Below are positions 21,944 to 48,882 of a DNA stretch of 64,000 bases, piece by piece. A program made the position numbers and the translations under genes. This DNA comes from Methanogenium organophilum (lineage in GTDB: Archaea > Halobacteriota > Methanomicrobia > Methanomicrobiales > Methanomicrobiaceae). Numbering within the stretch: position 1 is the first letter of the stretch; each line of letters begins with the position of its first letter. Under the pieces are notes generated by a model that was given only the letters and a program-made list of their open reading frames with translations, made no database searches and was not told the origin of the DNA. The stretch lies in NCBI RefSeq assembly GCF_026684035.1, contig NZ_CP113361.1, positions 620,001 through 684,000 on the forward strand, written 5' to 3'.

Positions 21944-23446
21944 TCAGACCTCCTGCATAAACCGGACACAGGTGCTGTCGTCTTCTGTATGCAGTGTCAA
22001 TTCATTCCCGCTCATCCGGTAGGAGACCGCCTGTTCCAGCGCCGCAAGATACCCACTCTCCTGATCCATCACCCCAACAGGCGTTTCACAGTACATCATC
22101 GTCATACCCAGCGGGCCAATGGAGATTGTCGGCCCGTCTGTCGTGTATGAACCAAAATAACTGTTGCAGCCGCTCTTACCCGTCACCTGTCCGTCTTCAC
22201 CGAAGACTGCGGTCACATCGGTGCCCGCCAGTGCAGATACCGTATTCCCGCCCGCATCCCGGTATGAGACCATCTGCCACTCACCTGCGGTCAGTTTCGG
22301 CTGTGCAATGGCATAGGTCACGAGAATACTACCGTCTTCATCCCGCAGGGTGAGCGTCTCCGGCGCCCGTTCAAACGTGGAAACATCACCCAGAAGGGCC
22401 AGATACTGAGACTCCTGCTCCATCACTCCTTCAGGCGTTTCGCAGGACATCCGGGTCGAGCCGACAGGGCCGATGGTTAACTCCATCCCACTCACCGAAT
22501 ATGACGCAAAATAATTGTTGCAGCCCGCACTGCCGGTCACCTGCCCGTCTTCACCGAAGACCGCGGTGATGGTGGTGCCCACGAGTGGGGAGATAACACC
22601 ACCCTGACCATTATTGTAACCAGTCACTTCCCAGTCCTCCCCCTGCGGAGCCGGAGTGTATCTTTTGTATACCGCCATTCGCGTACCGTCTGCATCCGTG
22701 ATGGTCAGATCACCAGGTCCAACACGGAAGGAGGCAGCCGCCTGCACAGCCGCAAGATACGCACTCTCCTGTGCCATCACACCTTCAGGGTCCATGCAGT
22801 ACATCTCCGTCATGGCAAGCGGCCCGATGGAGATGGCACTACCGGTCACGACATATGCTCCGGAATAGCTATTGCATCCCGCCGTCCCGGATATCTGCCC
22901 GTCTTCACTGAATGCTGCCGTGACAGCAGTCCCTGTGAGAACAGAGACAAAACCGCCCGCCCCATTGTTGTAGCCAGTGAGCATCCATTCTGTTCCACCC
23001 AGGTTCTGGTTCACCGCACGGTAGACAAGGATTTCCTGCCCGGATGAGTCCGTTATTGTAAGCTGATCACCTGAGACCATGTATCCTGCCGCTGTCCGGA
23101 GGAGTGACAGGTAGCGTGACTCCTGGTCCATCACACCCGACTCACCGCAGTACATCATCGTCACTACTGGCATTTCCACTGTAAGCGACTGCCCATCCGT
23201 GACATATGCCGCAGTATACGTGTTGCACCCGGATGTGCCCCCCACAGAACCGTCTGCGAACTCAGCGGTGACAGGTGCTGTTGCAAGCGATTCTGTCATG
23301 GAACCGTCCATATTCATATAACTCTCCAACATCCAGACTGTGCCGGTCAGGTCGCCCCCTCCCATCGGTTCCTCTGTACATCCACAGCAGAACACGACGC
23401 CAAGGAGAATAAGAACCGTCCCCACAGTCATTGTCCCTCTTCTCAT
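21944..23446 (-). CDS. Lipoprotein with four META/HslJ domains
   Basis: A secreted lipoprotein of 500 residues. A signal helix leads to a lipobox Cys about residue 23 (FCCGC). Four tandem META (HslJ-like) domains follow, about residues 33-143, 148-260, 268-380 and 386-498. Each repeats the same plan: W-x-L/V-x-Y near the start, T-AFxEDG-x-GxxGCNxY, then IGP-x-x-TxMxC, GVMxQESxYL, and a final LTI strand. Each unit keeps the GCN cysteine and the MxC cysteine, so four possible disulfides exist. META domains in bacteria are linked to stress and drug resistance, but the function here is unknown. Monocistronic. Confidence 0.85.
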   Translation of the reverse strand: MRRGTMTVGTVLILLGVVFCCGCTEEPMGGGDLTGTVWMLESYMNMDGSMTESLATAPVTAEFADGSVGGTSGCNTYTAAYVTDGQSLTVEMPVVTMMYCGESGVMDQESRYLSLLRTAAGYMVSGDQLTITDSSGQEILVYRAVNQNLGGTEWMLTGYNNGAGGFVSVLTGTAVTAAFSEDGQISGTAGCNSYSGAYVVTGSAISIGPLAMTEMYCMDPEGVMAQESAYLAAVQAAASFRVGPGDLTITDADGTRMAVYKRYTPAPQGEDWEVTGYNNGQGGVISPLVGTTITAVFGEDGQVTGSAGCNNYFASYSVSGMELTIGPVGSTRMSCETPEGVMEQESQYLALLGDVSTFERAPETLTLRDEDGSILVTYAIAQPKLTAGEWQMVSYRDAGGNTVSALAGTDVTAVFGEDGQVTGKSGCNSYFGSYTTDGPTISIGPLGMTMMYCETPVGVMDQESGYLAALEQAVSYRMSGNELTLHTEDDSTCVRFMQEV

Positions 23447-35626: not shown

Positions 35627-36602
35627 GTATCGTCTCCGAAACAGCCACCCCGAAATGGCGTCCGCCCTCTTGCCGGTGGCCAAGAATGATGTCCCCGGGT
35701 TTCAGGGTAGCAACCGAGACTGCATCTCCGTCGGGACACACCAGACGGACCGTCTCTGCGTTCTGCAGCACAAGAGACGACTTCATTCCGTCCTGCTCAA
35801 CCTCAACGAGAACCATGGGCCGCCGTTCGGTCTTCACCCTTCCGACCATCGCCACCGTGGTGGAGCCGTCCTCGCGGGCGACAAGCACCCGGTCACCGGC
35901 CACCACCTCTGAGAGATATTTGGTCTTTCCGTCCGCCATCATAACGTAGGCATGCACCGCTCCTGCGTTCACCCGGAATGGACGGGGTGCCACATAGGGA
36001 TTCTCCAGTGTCTCCGCCTGCACCAGAAGAAAGGCTGACGAGGTATTGCCAATAAGCATCCCTTCTCCTTCATGGAGGAGGGAACAGGTATCAATACAGA
36101 CACGGTCCCCCATAATGCCCGGAGAAATTGCCGTGACGGTGAACGGCACCAGATCATAGTGCGGGGTGATAACACGCACGCGGGCGGCTGTTGCGATGAT
36201 CTCTGCAGGGTCGTCTGTTACAAGACATATACCGGCGGTCCCGCGTTCAAGTACGGTGAGCGCCATCTCCGCCTCGTCTGCATTTCGGACAACCGCAATG
36301 ATACGGTCAGACTGTGAAACCAGATTTTCCAGCGGAATAACCGACCAGTCTGTTGTTGTGACAATCACCGGTGTCTTCTCTGCAAAACGGAGGGCATCTT
36401 CTTCACCCTCCTTCCCATCAATGCAGACCTCATGCACATCGGTTCCGAGGATCATATCACCGTCCGGTGCGATGACCGTCACCCTGCCAAGGGCATGGAA
36501 CGGTGCTGCCTCGGCTGCCACCAGGGCATCTGCCCCCTGTTCAATTGCCGTTGTCGCACATTCCTTCCCACAGGAACGCACATCCACCCAGAAGGTCTTC
36601 AT
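35616..36602 (-). CDS. 3-dehydroquinate synthase II (archaeal AroB')
   Basis: The archaeal enzyme that oxidatively deaminates and cyclises 2-amino-3,7-dideoxy-threo-hept-6-ulosonate to 3-dehydroquinate. The 328 residues begin KTFWVDVRSCGKECATTAIEQGAD, and contain GICLVTDDPAEI, SPGIMGDRVCIDTCSLLHEGEGMLIGNTSSAFLLV, the strongly conserved FRVNAGAVHAYVMM, and KTKYLSEVVAGDRVLV, all typical of this family (no relation to bacterial AroB). It sits next to the ADH-synthase genes that supply its substrate. Confidence 0.95.
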   Translation of the reverse strand: MKTFWVDVRSCGKECATTAIEQGADALVAAEAAPFHALGRVTVIAPDGDMILGTDVHEVCIDGKEGEEDALRFAEKTPVIVTTTDWSVIPLENLVSQSDRIIAVVRNADEAEMALTVLERGTAGICLVTDDPAEIIATAARVRVITPHYDLVPFTVTAISPGIMGDRVCIDTCSLLHEGEGMLIGNTSSAFLLVQAETLENPYVAPRPFRVNAGAVHAYVMMADGKTKYLSEVVAGDRVLVAREDGSTTVAMVGRVKTERRPMVLVEVEQDGMKSSLVLQNAETVRLVCPDGDAVSVATLKPGDIILGHRQEGGRHFGVAVSETIRET

Positions 36603-37384
36603 ACATCTCCCCCAAGTGCATCCTCAGGCGTTGCGTTCTGGTGCACCACACGGGTGATAGCACGGATGAACGGTGCCGGGTTGTCACGCTGGAAGGCATT
36701 TCTTCCCATCGCGACCCCTGCTGCACCGGCACCCACCGCCTCACGGATCATCGCAAGGGACTCAATATCTCCACCCTTTTCACCGCCTGCGATCAGCACC
36801 GGTACTGCACAGGCACTGGTAATTGCGGCAAACGTCTCCGGATCACCAGTGTAACTGGTTTTAATGATATCGGCGCCCAGCTCTTCTGCCACCCGCACAC
36901 AGAGCCCGATTGCCTCCGGATCTCTCGTGTCAACACCCTCCCCACGGGGGTAGATCATGATGAGAAGCGGCATACCCCATCGGGTACACTGCCGGGAGAT
37001 GACACCCGCCTCCTCAATCATCTTTGATTCATTCGGAGCCCCCAGATTGATGTGAATGGAGACACAGTCTGCACCAAGGAAGATAGCCTCCTCCACCGAG
37101 CATACCGACACCTTATCATTCGGGTCCGGATTCAGCGACGTGCTCGCCGAGAGATGGACGATGAGACCGATATCAGGGCCTGTCTTCCGGTGCCCGTGGC
37201 GAACCATCCCCTTATGAAGGACAATCGCGTTCGCACCACCCTCACTCACCGCAGAGATGATCTCCGGCATATCGTGCAGCCCGTAGATCTGCCCGAGAGA
37301 GAACCCGTGGTCCATTGGGATGATGACTGATCGCCCGGTATTCCGGTTCATGATCCGCTCCAGACGGATGGCTTTTCCGATCAT
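36599..37384 (-). CDS. ADH synthase / class I aldolase family, second paralogue
   Basis: A 261-residue TIM-barrel protein of the archaeal DhnA-type aldolase family. It shares the family frame with its neighbour (LERIMNR, PMDHG, GGANA, GHR, LSAS, MIYPRG, the Schiff-base Lys in IIKTSYTGDP, IAGGEKGG and VAMGRNAFQ). It differs by IIPMDHGFSLGQIYGL near the start. In methanogens one member makes 2-amino-3,7-dideoxy-threo-hept-6-ulosonate (ADH), the other acts as a fructose-bisphosphate/DKFP aldolase, and I cannot assign roles from sequence alone. Four-base overlaps on both sides place it in the aromatic operon. Confidence 0.85.
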   Translation of the reverse strand: MIGKAIRLERIMNRNTGRSVIIPMDHGFSLGQIYGLHDMPEIISAVSEGGANAIVLHKGMVRHGHRKTGPDIGLIVHLSASTSLNPDPNDKVSVCSVEEAIFLGADCVSIHINLGAPNESKMIEEAGVISRQCTRWGMPLLIMIYPRGEGVDTRDPEAIGLCVRVAEELGADIIKTSYTGDPETFAAITSACAVPVLIAGGEKGGDIESLAMIREAVGAGAAGVAMGRNAFQRDNPAPFIRAITRVVHQNATPEDALGGDV

Positions 37385-38184
37385 ACACGGGTTCCTGCCC
37401 TGAGGATCTCTGCCGCTTCCTCTGCACTGCGGTGTTCATGCACGACCTGTGCCATTGCACGGACAAAGAGGTCAGGGTGCGGGTGCTGGAAGGCATTTCT
37501 GCCGATGGAAATACCTGCGGCGCCCCCTTCCATTGCGCCTTCTATCATCTGCAGGGTCGCAAGATCATCCCCGCGTGCACCACCTGCGACGACGACCGGG
37601 ACGTGGCACCCGGCGGTGACCTCACGGAATGAATCCGGATCCCCGGTGTATGGAGTCTTTACGATATCAGCACCGAGTTCAGACGCCACCCTGGCCGCAT
37701 GTTTCACTTCATCTTTTCCCTTCTCATTGAGTACATTTGGTCCTCGCGGGTACATCATCGCGAGAAGAGGCATGCCCCATTCCATACACTCAACTGCGAT
37801 ACGGCCCAGGTCTTCGAGCATCCGCGCCTCAGAGTCAGCACCGATATTGCAGTGAACCGACACCCCGTCCGCCCCCATCTTCAGGGCATTTGTGACCGTG
37901 TTCACGATCACCTTGTCGTTCGGGTCAGGGCCCATATCAGTGCTTGCAGAGAGATGGAGAATCAGACCGATGTCCGGGCCCCCTTTCCGGTGACCATGCA
38001 GGGCAAGACCAATGTGGCCAAGGACTGCATTGGCTCCCCCCTGTGCCACCAGGTTTATGCTTTCATCCAGATCGATGACACCTGCAATCGGCCCGCTCGA
38101 TACCCCGTGGTCCATGGGAACGATTACTGTTGCGCCCGTGTCACGGTTCATAATTCTTTCCAGTCGGATTTGTTTTCCTCTCAT
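37381..38184 (-). CDS. 2-amino-3,7-dideoxy-D-threo-hept-6-ulosonate (ADH) synthase
   Basis: The first gene of the aromatic operon, 267 residues, of the DhnA-type aldolase family. It uses aspartate semialdehyde and DKFP for the archaeal first step toward 3-dehydroquinate. The pattern VIVPMDHGVSSGPIAGVID is very close to known ADH synthases (PMDHGVSNGPI in Methanocaldococcus). GGANAV, GHRKGGPD, LHLSAST, MYPRG, Lys in IVKTPYTGD, VVAGGARGDD and ISIGRNAFQ are present. It is closer to ADH synthase than the next gene. Confidence 0.87.
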   Translation of the reverse strand: MRGKQIRLERIMNRDTGATVIVPMDHGVSSGPIAGVIDLDESINLVAQGGANAVLGHIGLALHGHRKGGPDIGLILHLSASTDMGPDPNDKVIVNTVTNALKMGADGVSVHCNIGADSEARMLEDLGRIAVECMEWGMPLLAMMYPRGPNVLNEKGKDEVKHAARVASELGADIVKTPYTGDPDSFREVTAGCHVPVVVAGGARGDDLATLQMIEGAMEGGAAGISIGRNAFQHPHPDLFVRAMAQVVHEHRSAEEAAEILRAGTRV

Positions 38185-41332: not shown

Positions 41333-42370
41333 TTAGACCAGCTTGAAGAGCGGGTGGTCCTCTGTTGCGACGTCCACACCAAGCTCTTTTGCTGCTTCTG
41401 CAAGGACAATATCGGTGAATGCGATTGCGGTGGATGCACCTTCACAGTTCTCGATAGGTCCGTACATGATAAGGTCTGCACCAAGGGTTGCTGCCATGAT
41501 GTTACATCCGATATCAGGTGCTGACCATGCAGCCTGCTTGATACCATCGAATCCACCGAAGTGGTGATGTCCCATCTGCTCAAGAAGAAGGTCCTTACCT
41601 TCATACTGGCTGAGAAGCACAGAGGGGTTCTTTGCAGTTCCTCTCCAGCGCTTGAGCCACGTCCAGGAGACAGTCATGTTGTGGTATGCACCACCGGTTG
41701 GGAGACCGTGGATTGCCTTGCATGCAAGAATCTCACGGAATGAACCGCCTGACCCGAGACCGAGCGGTGTTGCTGCGGTATCGAGGATAGGCCGGGTAAT
41801 GCCACACTCTTCTGCGATTGAAAGCATGGACTTCTCCTGACCAGCGACGCCACCCTCTGCGAGGACAGCCTCACGGCCCTTTACACTTGCGTCACCAGGG
41901 TTGAATGCGAGCACAATAGCTGCGTCAACGTCACTGTTCTTGAGTGCCTCAATGTTCTCCGGGAGGATTGAACCATTGATAGAGTTGTAGATAGCACGGT
42001 CTGCCAGTCCAACCTCGGTCACATACTCACATGCGTGAGCAAGTGCAGGAGGCATGGACGAGTCCATGAGGAATGCCGTCTTGCTGTCAATGGAGTCAAA
42101 CCATGAGAAGTAGCTCTCAAAAGCCTCTCCTGATTCAGAGATAATCTGGATGAAGTGTTTTACACCTGTCTGGTCAGAAAGTTCCTGACATCTGTTCCAG
42201 AGCGCCTCTGCACGATCCTTGTCAATTATGCCTTTCTCATCATCAATAACACACTCGTGCTTGTTATAGAAGATGGATGCACCGAGAACCCGTGGATATT
42301 CGCCGGGCTGCCCGCCTATCTTGGTACCGTTGAAATCGTGTACCGCCTGTTCTTTCTCGAATTTGAACAT
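41333..42370 (-). CDS. mtrH: Tetrahydromethanopterin S-methyltransferase subunit H
   Basis: The cytoplasmic subunit that moves the methyl group from methyl-tetrahydromethanopterin (or its sarcinapterin form) to the corrinoid of MtrA. The 345 residues form a TIM barrel of the pterin-binding family: FNGTKIGGQPGEYPRVLGASIFYNKHECV near the start, YNSINGSILPENIEAL, AIVLAFNP, and the C-terminal LGADLIMYGPIENCEGASTAIAFTDIVLAEAAKELGV. It is the last gene of the mtr operon, 13 bases after the MtrA'-MtrG gene. Confidence 0.96.
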   Translation of the reverse strand: MFKFEKEQAVHDFNGTKIGGQPGEYPRVLGASIFYNKHECVIDDEKGIIDKDRAEALWNRCQELSDQTGVKHFIQIISESGEAFESYFSWFDSIDSKTAFLMDSSMPPALAHACEYVTEVGLADRAIYNSINGSILPENIEALKNSDVDAAIVLAFNPGDASVKGREAVLAEGGVAGQEKSMLSIAEECGITRPILDTAATPLGLGSGGSFREILACKAIHGLPTGGAYHNMTVSWTWLKRWRGTAKNPSVLLSQYEGKDLLLEQMGHHHFGGFDGIKQAAWSAPDIGCNIMAATLGADLIMYGPIENCEGASTAIAFTDIVLAEAAKELGVDVATEDHPLFKLV

Positions 42371-42383
42371 TTTTTCCCCCTCC

Positions 42384-43127
42384 TCAGATAAATCCGCCTA
42401 ACTTGGGGAGTAATACCAGTAACATCATGAATACAATCAGACCAGCGACAAGGCCATAGAGAATGCCTATGTCACGGCCGACCTTACGGCCATAGCGCTG
42501 AGCAAGTTCTGCATCAGCAAACTCCAGTTTCTTCTCGATAGCGTTGAGTTTGGCCTCAATTTCGAGGAACTGTGGGTTCGCTGTGGCAGCCACTGCACCG
42601 CCTTCGGCACCGCCTTCACCTTCGCTGACATCGACGACCATCGCGTCACCCTCGAATGCACCGGGATCCTTCCCTGCACACTCGGTGATCTTTGCGGTGA
42701 TAGCGCCCATGTCTTCCGATTCCATGATGTCGATAATCTCGACCTGCTGCTGGAACCGCTCGATTGCGGCTGCGTCAAGGTTCTCGATGAATGCGATTGC
42801 ACCCTGTGAACCGACGATCTTACCGCCTTCGACACCATTTTCGTGCAGAGCTTTCAGTGACTGGGCCGAAAGGTGACCCTTCACTTCTGTTCCACAGAAG
42901 ATGACGAAGCGGATGTTCGGATTCGAGATGGTGTTTGCAATCAGCTTCTCAAGTCCAAGGTTCTCTGTCTTACAGGAACCACAGATAGCAGCGCCTGCAT
43001 CACAGATACCCTGTTCGTCAAGGTGAGACCCGAACGTACAGACAGCAACACAGCTCTCTGCACTGCCGGAGTGATAATCACCCTGGATGATTGGCCAGCC
43101 TGATGCCGGAGATTTCTTGTCTGCCAT
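42384..43127 (-). CDS. MtrA-domain / MtrG fusion protein
   Basis: A 247-residue protein at the mtrG position. Residues 1-168 differ from the MtrA encoded upstream at only four places (D24E, G88A, N133D, E166D), keeping His85 in EVKGH, the expected lower cobamide ligand, and all cysteines. After an acidic Gly-rich linker, the tail (about residues 183-247) is not MtrA-like but matches Mtr[21 protein letters not shown], then [25 protein letters not shown], one C-terminal membrane helix. So the MtrG subunit carries its own cobamide-binding domain. An in-frame GTG at 42593 with GGCGGT ahead could also make free MtrG of 69 residues. Confidence 0.9.
42612..43127 (-). repeat. Second copy of the mtrA cobamide-domain DNA
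   Basis: This 516-base part repeats 43551-44066 (offset 939 bases) with only scattered, mainly synonymous differences by eye. Sequence similarity stops abruptly after the domain end, where the linker and tails diverge. Confidence 0.85.
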
Positions 43128-43128
43128 T

Positions 43129-43335
43129 TCACAGACCTCCTATCAGTAGTGCTGGTATCATCACAAGGACGATGGAAATGATCAGACCGAGTGCAAATCC
43201 CATGACACCGCTGGCACTTATTGCAGAATCAAGCTTGTTGGTACGCGCAAGAATCTGCCCTTTGTACGAGATATCAGACATCATGTCATCAATCGCTGCA
43301 GTACGAATTGTTGTGGGTTGTTTTTCATCTGTCAC
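43129..43335 (-). CDS. mtrF: Tetrahydromethanopterin S-methyltransferase subunit F
   Basis: A small subunit of 68 residues with one C-terminal transmembrane helix ([21 protein letters not shown]). The cytoplasmic part has the [27 protein letters not shown] pattern of MtrF, which resembles the C-terminal linker of some MtrA proteins. It sits between mtrA and the MtrA'-MtrG gene, the normal mtrF position. Confidence 0.88.
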
Positions 43336-43340
43336 TTATC

Positions 43341-44066
43341 TCACCCCATCAGAAGGAAGCCCAAAAGGACAAACGATATGACCAGTCCGATCATTACTCC
43401 CTCGACTTTACCGGAATACACACCCGCTGCATAGCGGTTGCGGTATCCCATGTCTGTCACCATCATCTGGATAGCTTTCATCCGGGCATGGATCAGAGCA
43501 AGTTCGCCGGACATCTCTGCCTCGACGCCTTCGCCTTCGCCTCCGGCACCGCCATCTTCATCGCTGACTTCGACGACCATCGCGTCACCCTCAAATGCAC
43601 CGGGATCCTTCCCTGCACACTCGGTGATCTTTGCGGTGATAGCGCCCATGTCTTCCGATTCCATGATGTTGATAATCTCAACCTGCTGCTGGAACCGCTC
43701 GATTGCGGCTGCGTCGAGGTTCTCGATGAATGCGATTGCACCCTGTGAACCGACGATCTTACCGCCTTCGACACCATTTTCGTGCAGAGCCTTCAGTGAC
43801 TGGCCGGATAAGTGGCCTTTCACTTCTGTTCCACAGAAGATGACGAAGCGGATGTTCGGATTCGAGATGGTGTTTGCAATCAGCTTCTCAAGTCCAAGGT
43901 TCTCTGTCTTACAGGAACCACAGATAGCAGCGCCTGCGTCACAGATACCCTGTTCGTCAAGGTGAGACCCGAACGTACAGACTGCAACACAGCTATCTGC
44001 ACTTCCGGAGTGATAATCGCCCTGGATAATTGGCCAGCCTGAGGCCGGTGATTTCTTATCTGCCAT
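43341..44066 (-). CDS. mtrA: Tetrahydromethanopterin S-methyltransferase subunit A
   Basis: The corrinoid-carrying subunit of Mtr, 241 residues. The cytoplasmic domain (residues 1-168) shows [37 protein letters not shown] with His85 as the probable cobalt ligand, and [15 protein letters not shown]. After a Gly/Glu linker comes the true MtrA C-terminus ([14 protein letters not shown]...[19 protein letters not shown]), with one membrane anchor. It receives the methyl group from MtrH and passes it to coenzyme M, driving Na+ export by MtrE. It lies just after mtrB. Confidence 0.96.
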
Positions 44067-44077
44067 ATCATATCACC

Positions 44078-44362
44078 TCATAAGAATCCAAACGCGATTA
44101 TCCCCGCGATGAAAAGTCCAACGGCAAGACCGTACCACATTGCTGTGACACCACCTGCGTAAAGCAGGGACTGATCTCTTCCGGGGAACGAAGCAAGGAA
44201 TTCTCCCTCTCCGGAAAGCATGTTGACGATGTCGTCTGCGACCTTGTCGAGTTTTTCGACACGCTCAACAACCGGGCCGAGAGATGCCCCTGCGGTAGTC
44301 ACAAGACCGACCATGGGGTCAGCGACAAGACCATATTCAGGCAATACCTGGATATATCCCAT
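44078..44362 (-). CDS. mtrB: Tetrahydromethanopterin S-methyltransferase subunit B
   Basis: A 94-residue subunit with one C-terminal membrane helix (VTAMWYGLAVGLFIAGIIAFGFL). The soluble head begins GYIQVLPEYGLVADPMVGLV, as in MtrB of other methanogens. The ATG overlaps the end of mtrC by one base. Its role is structural in the membrane-bound Mtr complex. Confidence 0.93.
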   Translation of the reverse strand: MGYIQVLPEYGLVADPMVGLVTTAGASLGPVVERVEKLDKVADDIVNMLSGEGEFLASFPGRDQSLLYAGGVTAMWYGLAVGLFIAGIIAFGFL

Positions 44363-45225
44363 TACTGTTCACCTCCGACTTCGCGGATAGGCTGTGCGTC
44401 AAGCCAGTCATATGCATCACGCTTCGAGAGCTTGATCAACTCACTGTAGGACCATCCCCAAAGGATGATTGAAATAGCAAATGAGATGACGACAGCTGGA
44501 ATCGAGAGGAATGCAATTGACATAACAGCAACGCCAATCATGCTCAGAGCACCGCACTCAATTGCGCACATCTGTGTACGGTCCCATGATTCATTCGGAC
44601 CGAGACATGCATTGAACGGGTGCTGGATTGCAATTGCACCAAGCATGAAGATTGTTGCGAGCACACATCCACCAATTACGGATGATGCATAGCTTGCAAT
44701 TTCAACGCCAAAGACTGATGTTGCACCGGTGATGAGGTCTCCGAATGAGAACGTACCTGCAACCATTGCAGTGAACCCGAGCATTGTCAGTGAACCGACA
44801 ACGGTGAGCTCTGCAATCATGCGGGTCATAACCGGGATGTTCATGTTGAGAACCTTATCTGAGATGAATCCGAGGATTGCTCCGAGGATTGCTGCAACAA
44901 CAACACAGCCGATAGGCACGAGAAGCGGGCTGATACCTGCAAGTTTTGTTGCAAAGAGCATGGCAACAACACCGGAACCAAGCGCGATCATACCCGCGGA
45001 TGGCACACCGGTACCAAGACCATAGCTGCAAAGGTTCTTAATTGAGTCAGTACCCCACCAGAGTACGATGATAGCCGCAAGCCCGCCAAAGAAGGCGAAG
45101 ACTTCCGTTGACATCAGGGTGTTGAGGTAGACCAGATAGATACAGACCAGTGCGCCAACGACCCCAATGCCAAGCATGACATTGTGGTCCATTCCGCCTT
45201 CTGATGCTTCAATTTTTACTGACAT
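44362..45225 (-). CDS. mtrC: Tetrahydromethanopterin S-methyltransferase subunit C
   Basis: An integral membrane subunit, 287 residues with about seven helices. MtrC-typical segments include ITPLL-like GISPLLVPIGCVVVAAILGAILGFISDKVLNMNIPVMTRMIAELTVVGSLTMLGFTA and FNACLGPNESWDRTQMCAIECGALSMIGVAVMSIAF. With MtrD and MtrE it forms the membrane part of the complex. It follows mtrD after 11 bases. Confidence 0.94.
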   Translation of the reverse strand: MSVKIEASEGGMDHNVMLGIGVVGALVCIYLVYLNTLMSTEVFAFFGGLAAIIVLWWGTDSIKNLCSYGLGTGVPSAGMIALGSGVVAMLFATKLAGISPLLVPIGCVVVAAILGAILGFISDKVLNMNIPVMTRMIAELTVVGSLTMLGFTAMVAGTFSFGDLITGATSVFGVEIASYASSVIGGCVLATIFMLGAIAIQHPFNACLGPNESWDRTQMCAIECGALSMIGVAVMSIAFLSIPAVVISFAISIILWGWSYSELIKLSKRDAYDWLDAQPIREVGGEQ

Positions 45226-45236
45226 TCTCTAACACC

Positions 45237-46067
45237 TCAGATTACCACCAGAAGAATAGCAACAAGACCGCAGGCTGCACATGCTGCAGACGATCCGATT
45301 ACTGCACGGGGCCATCTCTTGAACTTCGGGTCGTGAGGACCTTCGATTGTACCGGTAATGTTGTACGCGGTAAGTACTGCTGCTACAAGGAACATTCCGA
45401 CAGCAAAGATACCTGCAAGGGATACTGCAAGCGTGGTCATGCCCTCGGGGGTCATGCCAAGGAATGACGGAAGTGCCTCCTCGTAGACGGAGAGAAGCTC
45501 AAGATAAATGAGTGTTCCACCCATACCACCGAAAATACCACCAATTACACCACCAACGTAGGAGATGAACGGAAGTCCGTGACCCTCTGTTCCCTGAGAC
45601 TTGTATGCAGGGAAGGTGTCACCGGTGATGGGGTCTTTGTCGATCTTACCGGATGCAGCGGGAATACCCATTGCATAGACGTAGACAACGTTCACCATCA
45701 GACAGGTAATTGCCATCAGGAGACCGCCACCCATTGCGCCTGCACCGAGTGCAACCCAGATACCCATCTCAGCTGCCCATGCACCTCCGAAGAGACCTGC
45801 AAGGCCACCACCGGCAGCGAGCATTGCAACACCGGTAGCGATACCGGGTGCCTGGCCCATTGCTGCTGGTGCACCACCAACCGGTACGAAGTGCACACCA
45901 AAGGAGATGAGCACGCCGCCGATGATGACGCCGATGAGGGGAATGAGTGCCGACGGATAGAGAGCATAGATGATGCCCACAGATACCAGTACGATAACGA
46001 GTGCGATCACTGATGCTGCGGGGTTAATACCCTCTCCACCAGCTGAACCGCCACCTAATGCGCTCAT
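45237..46067 (-). CDS. mtrD: Tetrahydromethanopterin S-methyltransferase subunit D
   Basis: An integral membrane subunit of 276 residues with about six or seven helices. The family is shown by IIGGVLISFGVHFVPVGGAPAAMGQAPGIATGVAMLAAGGGLAGLFGGAWAAE, CLMVNVVYVYAMGIPAASGKIDKDPITGDTFPAYKSQGTEGHGLPFISYVGGVIGG, a strongly conserved extended loop. The ATG overlaps the mtrE stop codon by four bases. Confidence 0.95.
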   Translation of the reverse strand: MSALGGGSAGGEGINPAASVIALVIVLVSVGIIYALYPSALIPLIGVIIGGVLISFGVHFVPVGGAPAAMGQAPGIATGVAMLAAGGGLAGLFGGAWAAEMGIWVALGAGAMGGGLLMAITCLMVNVVYVYAMGIPAASGKIDKDPITGDTFPAYKSQGTEGHGLPFISYVGGVIGGIFGGMGGTLIYLELLSVYEEALPSFLGMTPEGMTTLAVSLAGIFAVGMFLVAAVLTAYNITGTIEGPHDPKFKRWPRAVIGSSAACAACGLVAILLVVI

Positions 46068-46975
46068 GCTGTTGCCTCCTCTTCTGCTGCTGTTTCTTCA
46101 GTATACGGGCCGTAGGTCTTACGTGCCCATGTCTCGACAAAGCGGTCGATGACCATGAAGATGATAATGATTACTGCACCGGCGATCACTGCTCCCCAGC
46201 CTGCTGCGAATGGCTCGAAGAGAATGGTACGCCATAACTCGAAGAACACAATAAGACCGAAACAGATACCGGATGCGGGACCTGCTCCCTTGGATGTGAA
46301 CCATCCGTTGTCGAGTGAACTTCTCTGTCCTGCCTCTGCATACCGGACAATGTCACCAGATGCGGAGATAGGTAAACCTGCTCCGAAGTCGTACTTCTGG
46401 TACTGGCGTTCTTTTCCGTAGAACGGGTTACCAGTCGCCGACCCTGCTGCTCCCAGTGCAATTCCCCATACAATACCCATCAATGGCAGCGGGAACGGGT
46501 GTCCCAGAGCCTCGATGATGAGGAAACACATAGTAACAGTGGTGAAAATCGCCACGAATGCGTGGGCCATAGTCACGGATGTAACCGATTTCAATATATC
46601 GATATACACCGGCTGTTCGAATTTTGCGAGACTTGCTGTACGACCGAGATATGCAGTCGTTGCGTAAACGCCCTGCACAAAGACTGCGACCGCAGAACCA
46701 ATGATGAGAGCAAGAATCGCATTGTACTGAATCGCCATCAACGCCCAGGCAATTCCAGCAGCTAATGCCACCCATAGACCGTACGCAGGGGGTTCACCGG
46801 ATACTGCTTTATTGTAGATCCTGTGAATATACCCCATCTGCGGAGCCAGCTGAACCTGTGAGTTCGGGTCACCCTGTGATCCGATATCAGATTCAGTGTC
46901 CTCCGCAGCGCCAGCCACAGTGGCAAGAGCGCCGGCTAAAGCGCTGATACCGATGCCAAATAGTATTTCTTCCAT
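46064..46975 (-). CDS. mtrE: Tetrahydromethanopterin S-methyltransferase subunit E
   Basis: The subunit that is thought to translocate Na+, 303 residues with about six or seven helices. It has the typical start ILFGIGISALAGALATVAGAAEDTESDIGSQGDPNSQVQLAPQMGYIHRIYNKAVSGEPPAYGLWVALA and the internal GNPFYGKERQYQKYDFGAGLPISASGDIVRYAE. GGAGG lies eight bases before the ATG. It heads the mtr operon. Confidence 0.96.
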   Translation of the reverse strand: MEEILFGIGISALAGALATVAGAAEDTESDIGSQGDPNSQVQLAPQMGYIHRIYNKAVSGEPPAYGLWVALAAGIAWALMAIQYNAILALIIGSAVAVFVQGVYATTAYLGRTASLAKFEQPVYIDILKSVTSVTMAHAFVAIFTTVTMCFLIIEALGHPFPLPLMGIVWGIALGAAGSATGNPFYGKERQYQKYDFGAGLPISASGDIVRYAEAGQRSSLDNGWFTSKGAGPASGICFGLIVFFELWRTILFEPFAAGWGAVIAGAVIIIIFMVIDRFVETWARKTYGPYTEETAAEEEATA

Positions 46976-47175: not shown

Positions 47176-48882
47176 TTACCGTGCTGGTATGATCAGTGAA
47201 CGCTCGCCTGCTGGCTTGAACTCGCGGATTGCACCCTTTGCGAATTCGCGGCGGGGCTCTGCAAAGTCGAAGGTCAGTGACGGATCTGCGAAACAGATCT
47301 TGATCAGCGGGTCGAAGCAGAATCCGTCGCCGCGTCCGTAGTGTGCACCACCGACGATAGCTGCGTATTCTCCCTGGTGACCGACATTCATGGCGTAGTT
47401 CGGGTAGTTTGGTCCACGAAGTTCGCCCATCAGACCGCGGTCAGGCTCCATGGAGAGGGAGTTTGCTGAACCACACTGGTCCTGAAGATCGTATCCGAAG
47501 AACCCGAGACGTGACCAGCCTTCCTTGTGCATGAGCATGGAAAGGTACCAGCCGTTCAGACCGGCGTTGGAGTTTCCGGTACCGATGGAACACGTCAGAC
47601 CACAGGCTGCTGCCATAACACCAGCACGCTGTGAACCACCGAAGTGGTCTTCCATCATGGTTGGATACTGCTCGTACTGCTCCATTGCATTGAGGTTTAC
47701 CTCGGTTGCAAGGTCGTTGACGACCTCCTGGGTCGGAGCGATGGTTGCTGCGGGGTCAGGACTGGAGTAGTCGAAGCCGTACTTGTCCTTCAGGTAGTCC
47801 ATACCATAGTAGGTGTACTCATCGAGGATGTTGTCGGTGTATGCTGCGGTAGCGTACTGGGTGAAACCGACACCACCGGACATGTATGAACCAAGCCAGA
47901 TCTGGTCGAAGAGCATGGTACCTGCACCGACAACCTCAAGGGAAGCACGGGCGGGGTCCTTCGGGTATTTCCGGTTTGCCTGAACAATATCGGAGAAGAC
48001 ACCGAACTTGATACCACCGGGCTCGTTTGGACCACGGGCACGACGTGCCGGAAGGATGGATGCCATCTGTGAGACACCGGCGTGCTTTGCGGCGAATGAA
48101 AGGTCAGCGACTGCTGCTTCACCCGCGCACATGCGGTATGCTGCGATGAAGGACATACCGATCTGCATAGCAGACCATCTGGAGGTAGTTCCACCATCAC
48201 AGGTACGGGAGACAATGGTCGGAATGTGGATTGCCTGGTACATCGATTTGCCTACCTGTGCCTTCAGGGCCTCTGCCTGGTCGTCAGGGAAGAGCTTGTC
48301 GATGTTGATCAGGAACTGTGGCTCAATGTCGTCTGCCATGGCGTCGTCGCCGGTGAAGACCTTCACGTAACAGTCATCGACAAGGCCCGGGTGGGTCTCG
48401 ACCATGTGTTCCTGAACCACTGCTGCACCGGGCATTGCGTGGTTGAGGATGTGGAGATATTCGTTGATGGTCTCAGGGGTAACTTCCTTGCCGAGACGCT
48501 TCTGGAGTGTGGCGTGTGCAAGGTCCATACCGACAACGACAGTACGGCGGATGTCATCCCACATCTGCTGCATGGCAGAGTTGTTGACAAAGTGCAGGTC
48601 GTCACCCTCTACGAAGATACCGCTCTGGGATACTTCGTAGGTCATGAGCTGTCTCTGACCCATGGGCAGTCCGCCAAGGTGGCAGTGCTCGGGGTCGTAC
48701 ATGGAGATTCCACGCTCCATCTCGATACCCTGTGCAGCCTTCATGAATTCGCGCTTACGCGGAGACTGGCGGATACCGTTGAAGTTGTAGAATGTGGTCT
48801 TTACGGACTCAGGATCCTGGCCCTGGAACTTCTCTTTGAGTGCGTCAAGGAAAAGCTTCTGTGATCTCTCAATTTTTGCCAT
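47176..48882 (-). CDS. mcrA: Methyl-coenzyme M reductase, alpha subunit
   Basis: The catalytic subunit of the enzyme that releases methane from methyl-coenzyme M and coenzyme B with nickel F430. The 568 residues are usual for McrA. Active-site elements include [20 protein letters not shown] (the Arg modification region), [21 protein letters not shown], and [18 protein letters not shown] with the site for the thioglycine. The C-terminus reads [23 protein letters not shown]. It closes the mcrBDCGA operon. Confidence 0.98.

Follow-up and report, generated by a model that had tools for sequence, protein, structure and literature searches.

In the window analyzed here, a 64,000-nt stretch of the Methanogenium organophilum genome (contig NZ_CP113361.1, positions 620,001 to 684,000), the mtr operon reads mtrE-D-C-B-A1-F-(A2::G)-H on a single strand (minus) and lies downstream of mcrA (47176-48882, minus strand). 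Two of its genes carry an MtrA corrinoid domain (Table 1). The domains score 278.6 and 275.9 bits against PF04208 (curated cut-off 25), and on profile score, cobalamin contacts and operon position both can be assigned, from the sequence, to group I MtrA of the Mtr complex.

Table 1. Genes and domains of the mtr locus (positions in the 64,000-nt window).
Feature	Position	Strand	Match or remark
mtrH, methyl-H4MPT side methyltransferase	41333-42370	-	PF02007, E=1.7e-96
mtrA-2 fusion gene (MtrA-MtrG)	42384-43127	-	247 aa, between mtrF and mtrH
MtrG portion of mtrA-2 (residues 184-238), forming stalk and membrane helix	42414-42578	-	PF04210, E=2.3e-22
Gly/Ala/Glu-rich MtrA-to-MtrG linker, residues 173-183	42579-42611	-	gap between Pfam matches; low pLDDT
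MtrA corrinoid domain copy 2, mtrA-2 codons 1-172	42612-43127	-	PF04208, residues 4-173, E=1.4e-82
mtrF, between both copies	43129-43335	-	PF09472, E=8.1e-19; NCBIfam MtrF equivalog
mtrA-1	43341-44066	-	241 aa; TIGR01111 mtrA (NCBIfam) over residues 1-239, 332 bits
mtrA-1 Glu/Gly-rich linker and single membrane-anchor helix	43341-43550	-	does not align to copy-2 tail
MtrA corrinoid (cobamide-carrying) domain copy 1, mtrA-1 codons 1-172	43551-44066	-	PF04208, residues 4-172, E=2.1e-83
mtrB	44078-44362	-	PF05440, E=1.7e-32
mtrC	44362-45225	-	NCBIfam equivalog TIGR01148
mtrD	45237-46067	-	NCBIfam equivalog TIGR01112
mtrE	46064-46975	-	NCBIfam equivalog TIGR01113

The MtrH of Methanomicrobiales, that of this operon included, has ∼34 extra residues near 244-277 relative to Methanosarcina- and Methanocella-like MtrH. 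MtrH matches are split (1-243 and 278-345) in loci L206-L209 and most of L213-L216, and unbroken in L082, L092, L137, and L210; the insert is not simply tied to a second MtrA domain, since Methanocella-like genomes with an MtrA-F fusion are without it. Elsewhere in the window, all on the minus strand, lie a large DUF3821 protein with a PGF-CTERM sorting motif (175-2793), which is probably an S-layer or cell-surface protein, a 500-aa secreted-looking protein with four tandem META domains (21944-23446; PF03724 in four stretches, E=1.7e-95), and two tandem, overlapping DeoC/LacD-type aldolase genes (36599-37384 and 37381-38184; PF01791). The aldolase pair adjoins a chain of shikimate-pathway-like genes and its members, unlike the mtrA copies, are by eye clearly diverged paralogues.

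The two corrinoid domains form a direct repeat with an offset of 939 bases. Only 25 of 516 bases (codons 1-172) differ, spread over 23 codons, and 7 of 172 residues are changed (24 D/E, 88 G/A, 133 N/D, 166 E/D, 169 D/E, 170 E/G, and 171 D/E); a 96% identical in-frame repeat of 500 bases is far beyond chance. Homology sets in at the ATG, with no match over the preceding 60 bases, and decays past approximately codon 172, beyond which the tails are unrelated and cannot be aligned. An earlier note on this DNA had given the same coordinates, orientation, offset and unrelated tails; its count of four residue changes applies only up to codon 168. Most differences are synonymous, as the synonymous/non-synonymous count proposed in that note brought out: dS was 0.158 and dN 0.0105 (NG86, over the 165 codons used in comparisons), giving a dN/dS of ∼0.07, in keeping with its view that selection keeps both copies functional. 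No third copy was found at the DNA level in the whole genome (one contig of 2,648,164 bases). Recombination between the repeats would delete mtrF, as had been pointed out; it would also remove the anchor tail of MtrA1 and leave one MtrA-MtrG gene.

The tail of the second copy had been overlooked as a known subunit. It is MtrG (PF04210, E=2.3e-22 and 79.1 bits, cut-off 27; TIGR01149, 73.7 bits, cut-off 50.65), which makes the gene an MtrA-MtrG fusion rather than an MtrA copy with a tail. Residues 175-237 of the fusion match MtrG of structure 9qtq (chain 9qtq_S) and residues 185-240 that of 8q3v (8q3v_G). In a profile search of the genome the fusion part was the sole MtrG match; a small free-standing MtrG was not found. 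The fusion, modeled with AlphaFold2 from 28 sequences, had a mean pLDDT of 77.4 with a confident MtrA domain, pLDDT <50 at model residues 169-190 (linker), and one long helix at 184-243. The linkers of the two genes are composed of 26% E, 23% G, and 17% A in A1 and of 30% A, 21% G, and 12% E in A2. For outgroups we turned to a phylum-level search for MtrG, the class-level search having returned only Methanomicrobiales again; a free mtrG ORF (∼80-107 aa) together with a single mtrA was found in related lineages (L180-L193, L197, L198, L200, and L201).

MtrA matches were present in 170 of 199 Methanomicrobiales genomes, mostly two per genome, and MtrG matches in 163 of 199, one each among the matches listed; genomes of the order lacking an MtrA or MtrG match are largely drafts. 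From 206 scanned sequences we obtained 141 full-length pairs, and 89 after identical copies were dropped. We excluded outgroups, contigs that were truncated, loci containing N runs, and one frame-broken locus (L064), and the sample of loci leans to intact pairs. Draft assemblies tend to break or collapse within the mtrA repeat (L082, L092, L137, L139, and L210, and several contig ends): of 77 loci, 13 start inside mtrA, with a match start of 1-3, and the locus contains 365 N in L082 and 350 N in L092. Where drafts of this kind lack mtrA or have a short one, gene loss is not to be concluded. In L064, a draft of Methanogenium cariaci, mtrB, mtrA-1, and mtrF (1755-2855) are each split between frames; three adjoining broken essential genes suggest sequencing errors rather than decay.

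In all 89 pairs the second copy is an MtrG fusion, with 178-181 aa from MtrA residue 1 to the MtrG reference position, and the start-to-start offset of the copies is 926-956 bases. Because the fused arrangement and the spacing are common to every pair, the duplication is ancient rather than recent, and a single ancient origin of the A1/A2::G pair is the simplest reading of the sequences. The recent duplication that the earlier note had entertained thus finds no support across these 89 distinct pairs.

The other process considered there, continuing gene conversion, is supported for the genus of the window. Within-genome identity of the 89 pairs over 165 codons had a median of 0.968 (range 0.790-1.000, seven pairs at 1.000). 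The window pair is 0.960 identical, vs. 0.899 (A1) and 0.921 (A2) to the nearest orthologue; the nearest named loci are those of Methanogenium marinum and M. cariaci (92% protein identity), and four relatives in the sample share the Methanogenium genus code or name. The window A1 and A2 are sisters (support 100/92) in the maximum-likelihood tree built from 178 sequences, and placing the four Methanogenium A1 copies in a single clade was rejected (p-AU 0.0003; groups for the AU tests were picked after the identity table and the tree had been seen). Site patterns, written as genome-wise : paralogue-wise : cross-wise, were 25:2:1 for the window against genome G037, 41:2:0 against M. marinum, and 36:0:0 against CSMAG_280. 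Against a dS of 0.158 within the pair, dS from the window to its nearest relative reached 0.37 (A1) and 0.29 (A2) for the domain, with 0.25-0.30 for the unconverted tails, which places the last homogenization after the nearest species split sampled. These sequence comparisons support gene conversion in Methanogenium with both copies under selection.

A conversion tract was not detected by the longest-identical-run test in the window pair (p=0.54), nor was the test significant in three relatives (L063, p=0.15; L140, p=0.22; L066, p=0.053). We also considered GC-biased conversion. In 82 of 89 pairs, GC3 of the MtrA domains (0.653/0.650) was not above that of mtrH (0.672), nor clearly above that of mtrC (0.632, p=0.09), and the GC3 difference between MtrA and mtrH was uncorrelated with pair identity (rho 0.13, p=0.24). 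A counter-signal came from single-mtrA relatives, in which that difference was -0.063 vs. -0.020 in the pairs (p=0.004; 23 rows, three of which repeat a genome). We read these figures as giving no clear signal of GC bias in conversion.

The two copies are sisters in 61 of the 89 pairs, which is a count for this sample and not a rate for the order, and non-sisters in 28; among single-contig genomes the corresponding numbers were 15 and 10 of 25. In five genus-level groups A1 and A2 form separate clades, nested inside a clade made up solely of that group: Methanomicrobium (L056 and L058; M. mobile and Methanomicrobium sp.), one Methanocorpusculum group, and groups g2, g6, and g35, which we take to be Methanoplanus-like, Methanolacinia, and Methanospirillum, respectively. 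In a second Methanocorpusculum group A2 forms a clade and A1 is not resolved as one. Site patterns in the lapsed groups (0:70:1 in g35, 0:61:3, and 0:39:0) are the reverse of those in the window, and forcing the pair together was rejected for one g35 pair (p-AU 2.6e-5) and for Methanomicrobium mobile (p-AU 1.3e-4). Orthologues clustering across species, the pattern that the earlier note had set against conversion, are absent in Methanogenium and present in other genera of the order. In the lapsed genera the copies predate the species: paralogue differences are common to relatives, and the spacing is unchanged. All non-sister pairs are confined to clades of close relatives, which indicates that homogenization took place earlier in every lineage and later lapsed or slowed in some. 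From these patterns, homogenization appears to be episodic, with copying lapsed in several genera. Pair identities are bimodal, with 13 below 0.86, 76 above 0.88, and none between, and it is possible that an identity threshold for recombination lies behind this distribution. Spacing was rejected as the cause of the lapse (offset vs. identity, rho 0.14, p=0.18).

The sequences speak for function being retained in both copies: pooled pN/pS was 0.102 (89 pairs), mean dN/dS was 0.064 (42 pairs with dS 0.1-1), and at 60 of 165 codon positions the encoded residue never varies among the 178 copies, those of pairs only 79-85% identical included. H85, E55, D17, K53, T54, G58, and N65 are invariant in A1 and A2 of 89/89 pairs. 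Published cobalamin contacts are His84 (cobalt-ligating), Glu54, Asp17, Lys52, Thr53, Gly57, and Asn64 (PMC4915002), and we read the invariant residues as these contacts, with a one-residue numbering offset past position 17. Copy-specific residues that resist conversion were sought among the 25 most often differing columns and none was found; the changes go both ways. In Methanocorpusculum, A1 is under somewhat weaker constraint than A2 (pN/pS 0.167 vs. 0.055, and 0.151 vs. 0.067).

The fusion, its order-wide pairing with mtrA-1, and concerted evolution by gene conversion are already known (Wang et al., 2015, G3; PMC4632066). In eight Methanomicrobiales species these authors reported a mean nucleotide identity of 92.4%, and same-species paralogues clustered with bootstrap >98. 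Their mtrA-1/mtrA-2b pair resembles that of the window in its position between mtrF and mtrH, the MtrA-MtrG fusion, the homogenized domain and the unrelated membrane parts, and was likewise explained by long-lasting gene conversion; Methanogenium is absent from the species named in the legend of their figure 2. The 28 non-sister pairs among 89 add to what the accessible text of that paper reports. Apart from it and a 2023 paper (PMC9982363), our literature search, which left most subscription journals outside its reach, found no other work on concerted evolution or gene conversion of mtrA. In the comparable mtrA-1/mtrA-2a pair of Methanococcales and Methanocella arvoryzae, too, a second MtrA domain is fused to a small stalk subunit and kept identical, but the partner is MtrF, mtrG is free, and the origin is independent (PMC4632066). 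We found MtrA-F fusions in three Methanocella-like genomes (L206-L208, from G219, G237, and G246), with domains 100, 99.6, and 100% identical; a fourth Methanocella-like relative (G228) has an ordinary single-mtrA operon, and L208 carries two MtrG-like ORFs in tandem ahead of mtrH. Genes such as tuf in long-lasting concerted evolution, a list that includes mtrA, also have paralogues more alike than orthologues (Wang and Chen, 2018; PMC6053082); most of the listed genes are whole-gene copies, whereas homogenization in the window ends at the domain border.

We consider it very probable that an ancient duplication producing A2::G, followed by recurrent gene conversion of the MtrA domains, accounts for the locus, with a second cobamide arm as its likely product. 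Had mtrA been duplicated recently and independently in every species or genus, within-genome clustering, as in 61 of 89 genomes, would also result, and Wang et al. (2015; PMC4632066) stated that they could not completely exclude this. Such duplications would however have to re-form the same fusion point and the same spacing each time, in 89 of 89 cases, and always to swap the MtrA anchor for MtrG across mtrF, and in several genera the copies are older than the species (0:70:1 in the Methanospirillum-like g35); we regard this origin of the near-identity as very improbable. About equally improbable, or slightly more so, is that purifying selection and codon bias alone, in the absence of DNA exchange, keep the copies alike. 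The very low dN/dS (mean 0.064) fits such an explanation, as does the high expression to be expected of mtr genes; but at synonymous sites the two copies of the genome are closer to each other than to sister-species orthologues (dS 0.158 vs. 0.29-0.37), and under constraint alone orthologues should be just as similar and 25:2 or 36:0 site patterns would not arise. An assembly artefact, in which one copy was read as two or the copies were blended, is hardly credible. Short-read contigs do break or carry N runs at the locus, and 100% identity in drafts needs care; the window copies, however, differ at 25 sites and have distinct neighbors on each side within one 2.65-Mb contig, the same junctions recur in independent genomes, and the 25 single-contig genomes give sister and non-sister pairs alike.

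Under the favored reading of ancient duplication and gene conversion, the duplication would have placed a second corrinoid domain ahead of MtrG. Recurrent non-reciprocal recombination between the direct repeats would then keep the MtrA domains nearly identical, while the linkers, anchors and mtrF, which share no homology, would evolve separately. The Mtr structures of Methanothermobacter marburgensis and Methanosarcina mazei show MtrA, B, F, and G as a stalk around MtrCDE, with MtrG as a central membrane helix and a mobile corrinoid domain on MtrA, as the parts of the window would suggest; unlike the window, they have a single corrinoid domain in each protomer, and their MtrG is free (PMC10998594, PMC12774963). 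The portions of these two texts available contain no mention of a fused MtrA-MtrG form, and the 2024 and 2025 Mtr structures come from single-mtrA organisms. In the Methanothermobacter structure the N-termini of MtrA, MtrB, MtrF, and MtrG are cytoplasmic, the three-fold core in the membrane is built of MtrG helices, and the soluble domain of MtrA, mobile on a disordered Glu/Gly-rich linker, shuttles between MtrH and the MtrCDE cavity (PMC10998594). Since the N-terminus of MtrG is cytoplasmic, an MtrA domain fused there would face the correct compartment, and the linker that carries it is similar in composition. Through the fusion each protomer would gain a second cobamide arm on a flexible tether, at the center of the stalk, and a putative second arm on MtrG beside the usual one on MtrA is its likeliest function. 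We infer cobamide loading and turnover for the two arms alike, and likewise their number per complex. Both arms would dock to the same MtrH and the same MtrCDE cavity, and selection for alike arms is plausible because each must fit the same two docking sites; a related argument on subunit interactions was made by Wang et al. (2015; PMC4632066).

With fusion and conversion both real, the second domain may instead serve MtrG in structure or assembly, or store cobamide. Our literature search found no biochemistry on Mtr of Methanomicrobiales, and the weaker constraint on A1 than on A2 in Methanocorpusculum would allow non-equivalent arms. We nevertheless judge this alternative unlikely: the 60 invariant positions, among them the cobalt ligand and the cobalamin contacts, are common to A1 and A2 (178/178), identical docking surfaces would be needless in a store, and both paralogues are essential as stated by Wang et al. 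(2015; PMC4632066), citing Sarmiento (2013). A more far-reaching proposal combines a two-armed Mtr (six cobamide domains per trimer rather than three, half of them on MtrG) with a conversion threshold at ∼86-88% identity and with specializing arms in the lapsed genera. Above that threshold conversion would keep the arms interchangeable; the gap in pair identities, the paralogue differences that predate the species, and the unchanged spacing would fit such a view. We advance this combination tentatively, as somewhat more likely to fail than to hold; if it is true, the arms of the lapsed genera (Methanospirillum-like, Methanomicrobium, Methanoplanus- and Methanolacinia-like, and Methanocorpusculum) would be free to specialize for the two half-reactions.

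In methanogenesis without cytochromes, Na+ is pumped at the Mtr step, and whether a protomer has one or two arms bears on the mechanism of Mtr; recent Mtr structures cover the one-arm form only. The mtrA pair has been quoted as a case of conversion throughout the history of the order, and in our denser sample conversion appears episodic and reversible. The genera with diverged copies may serve as natural replicates for asking what homogenization is for.
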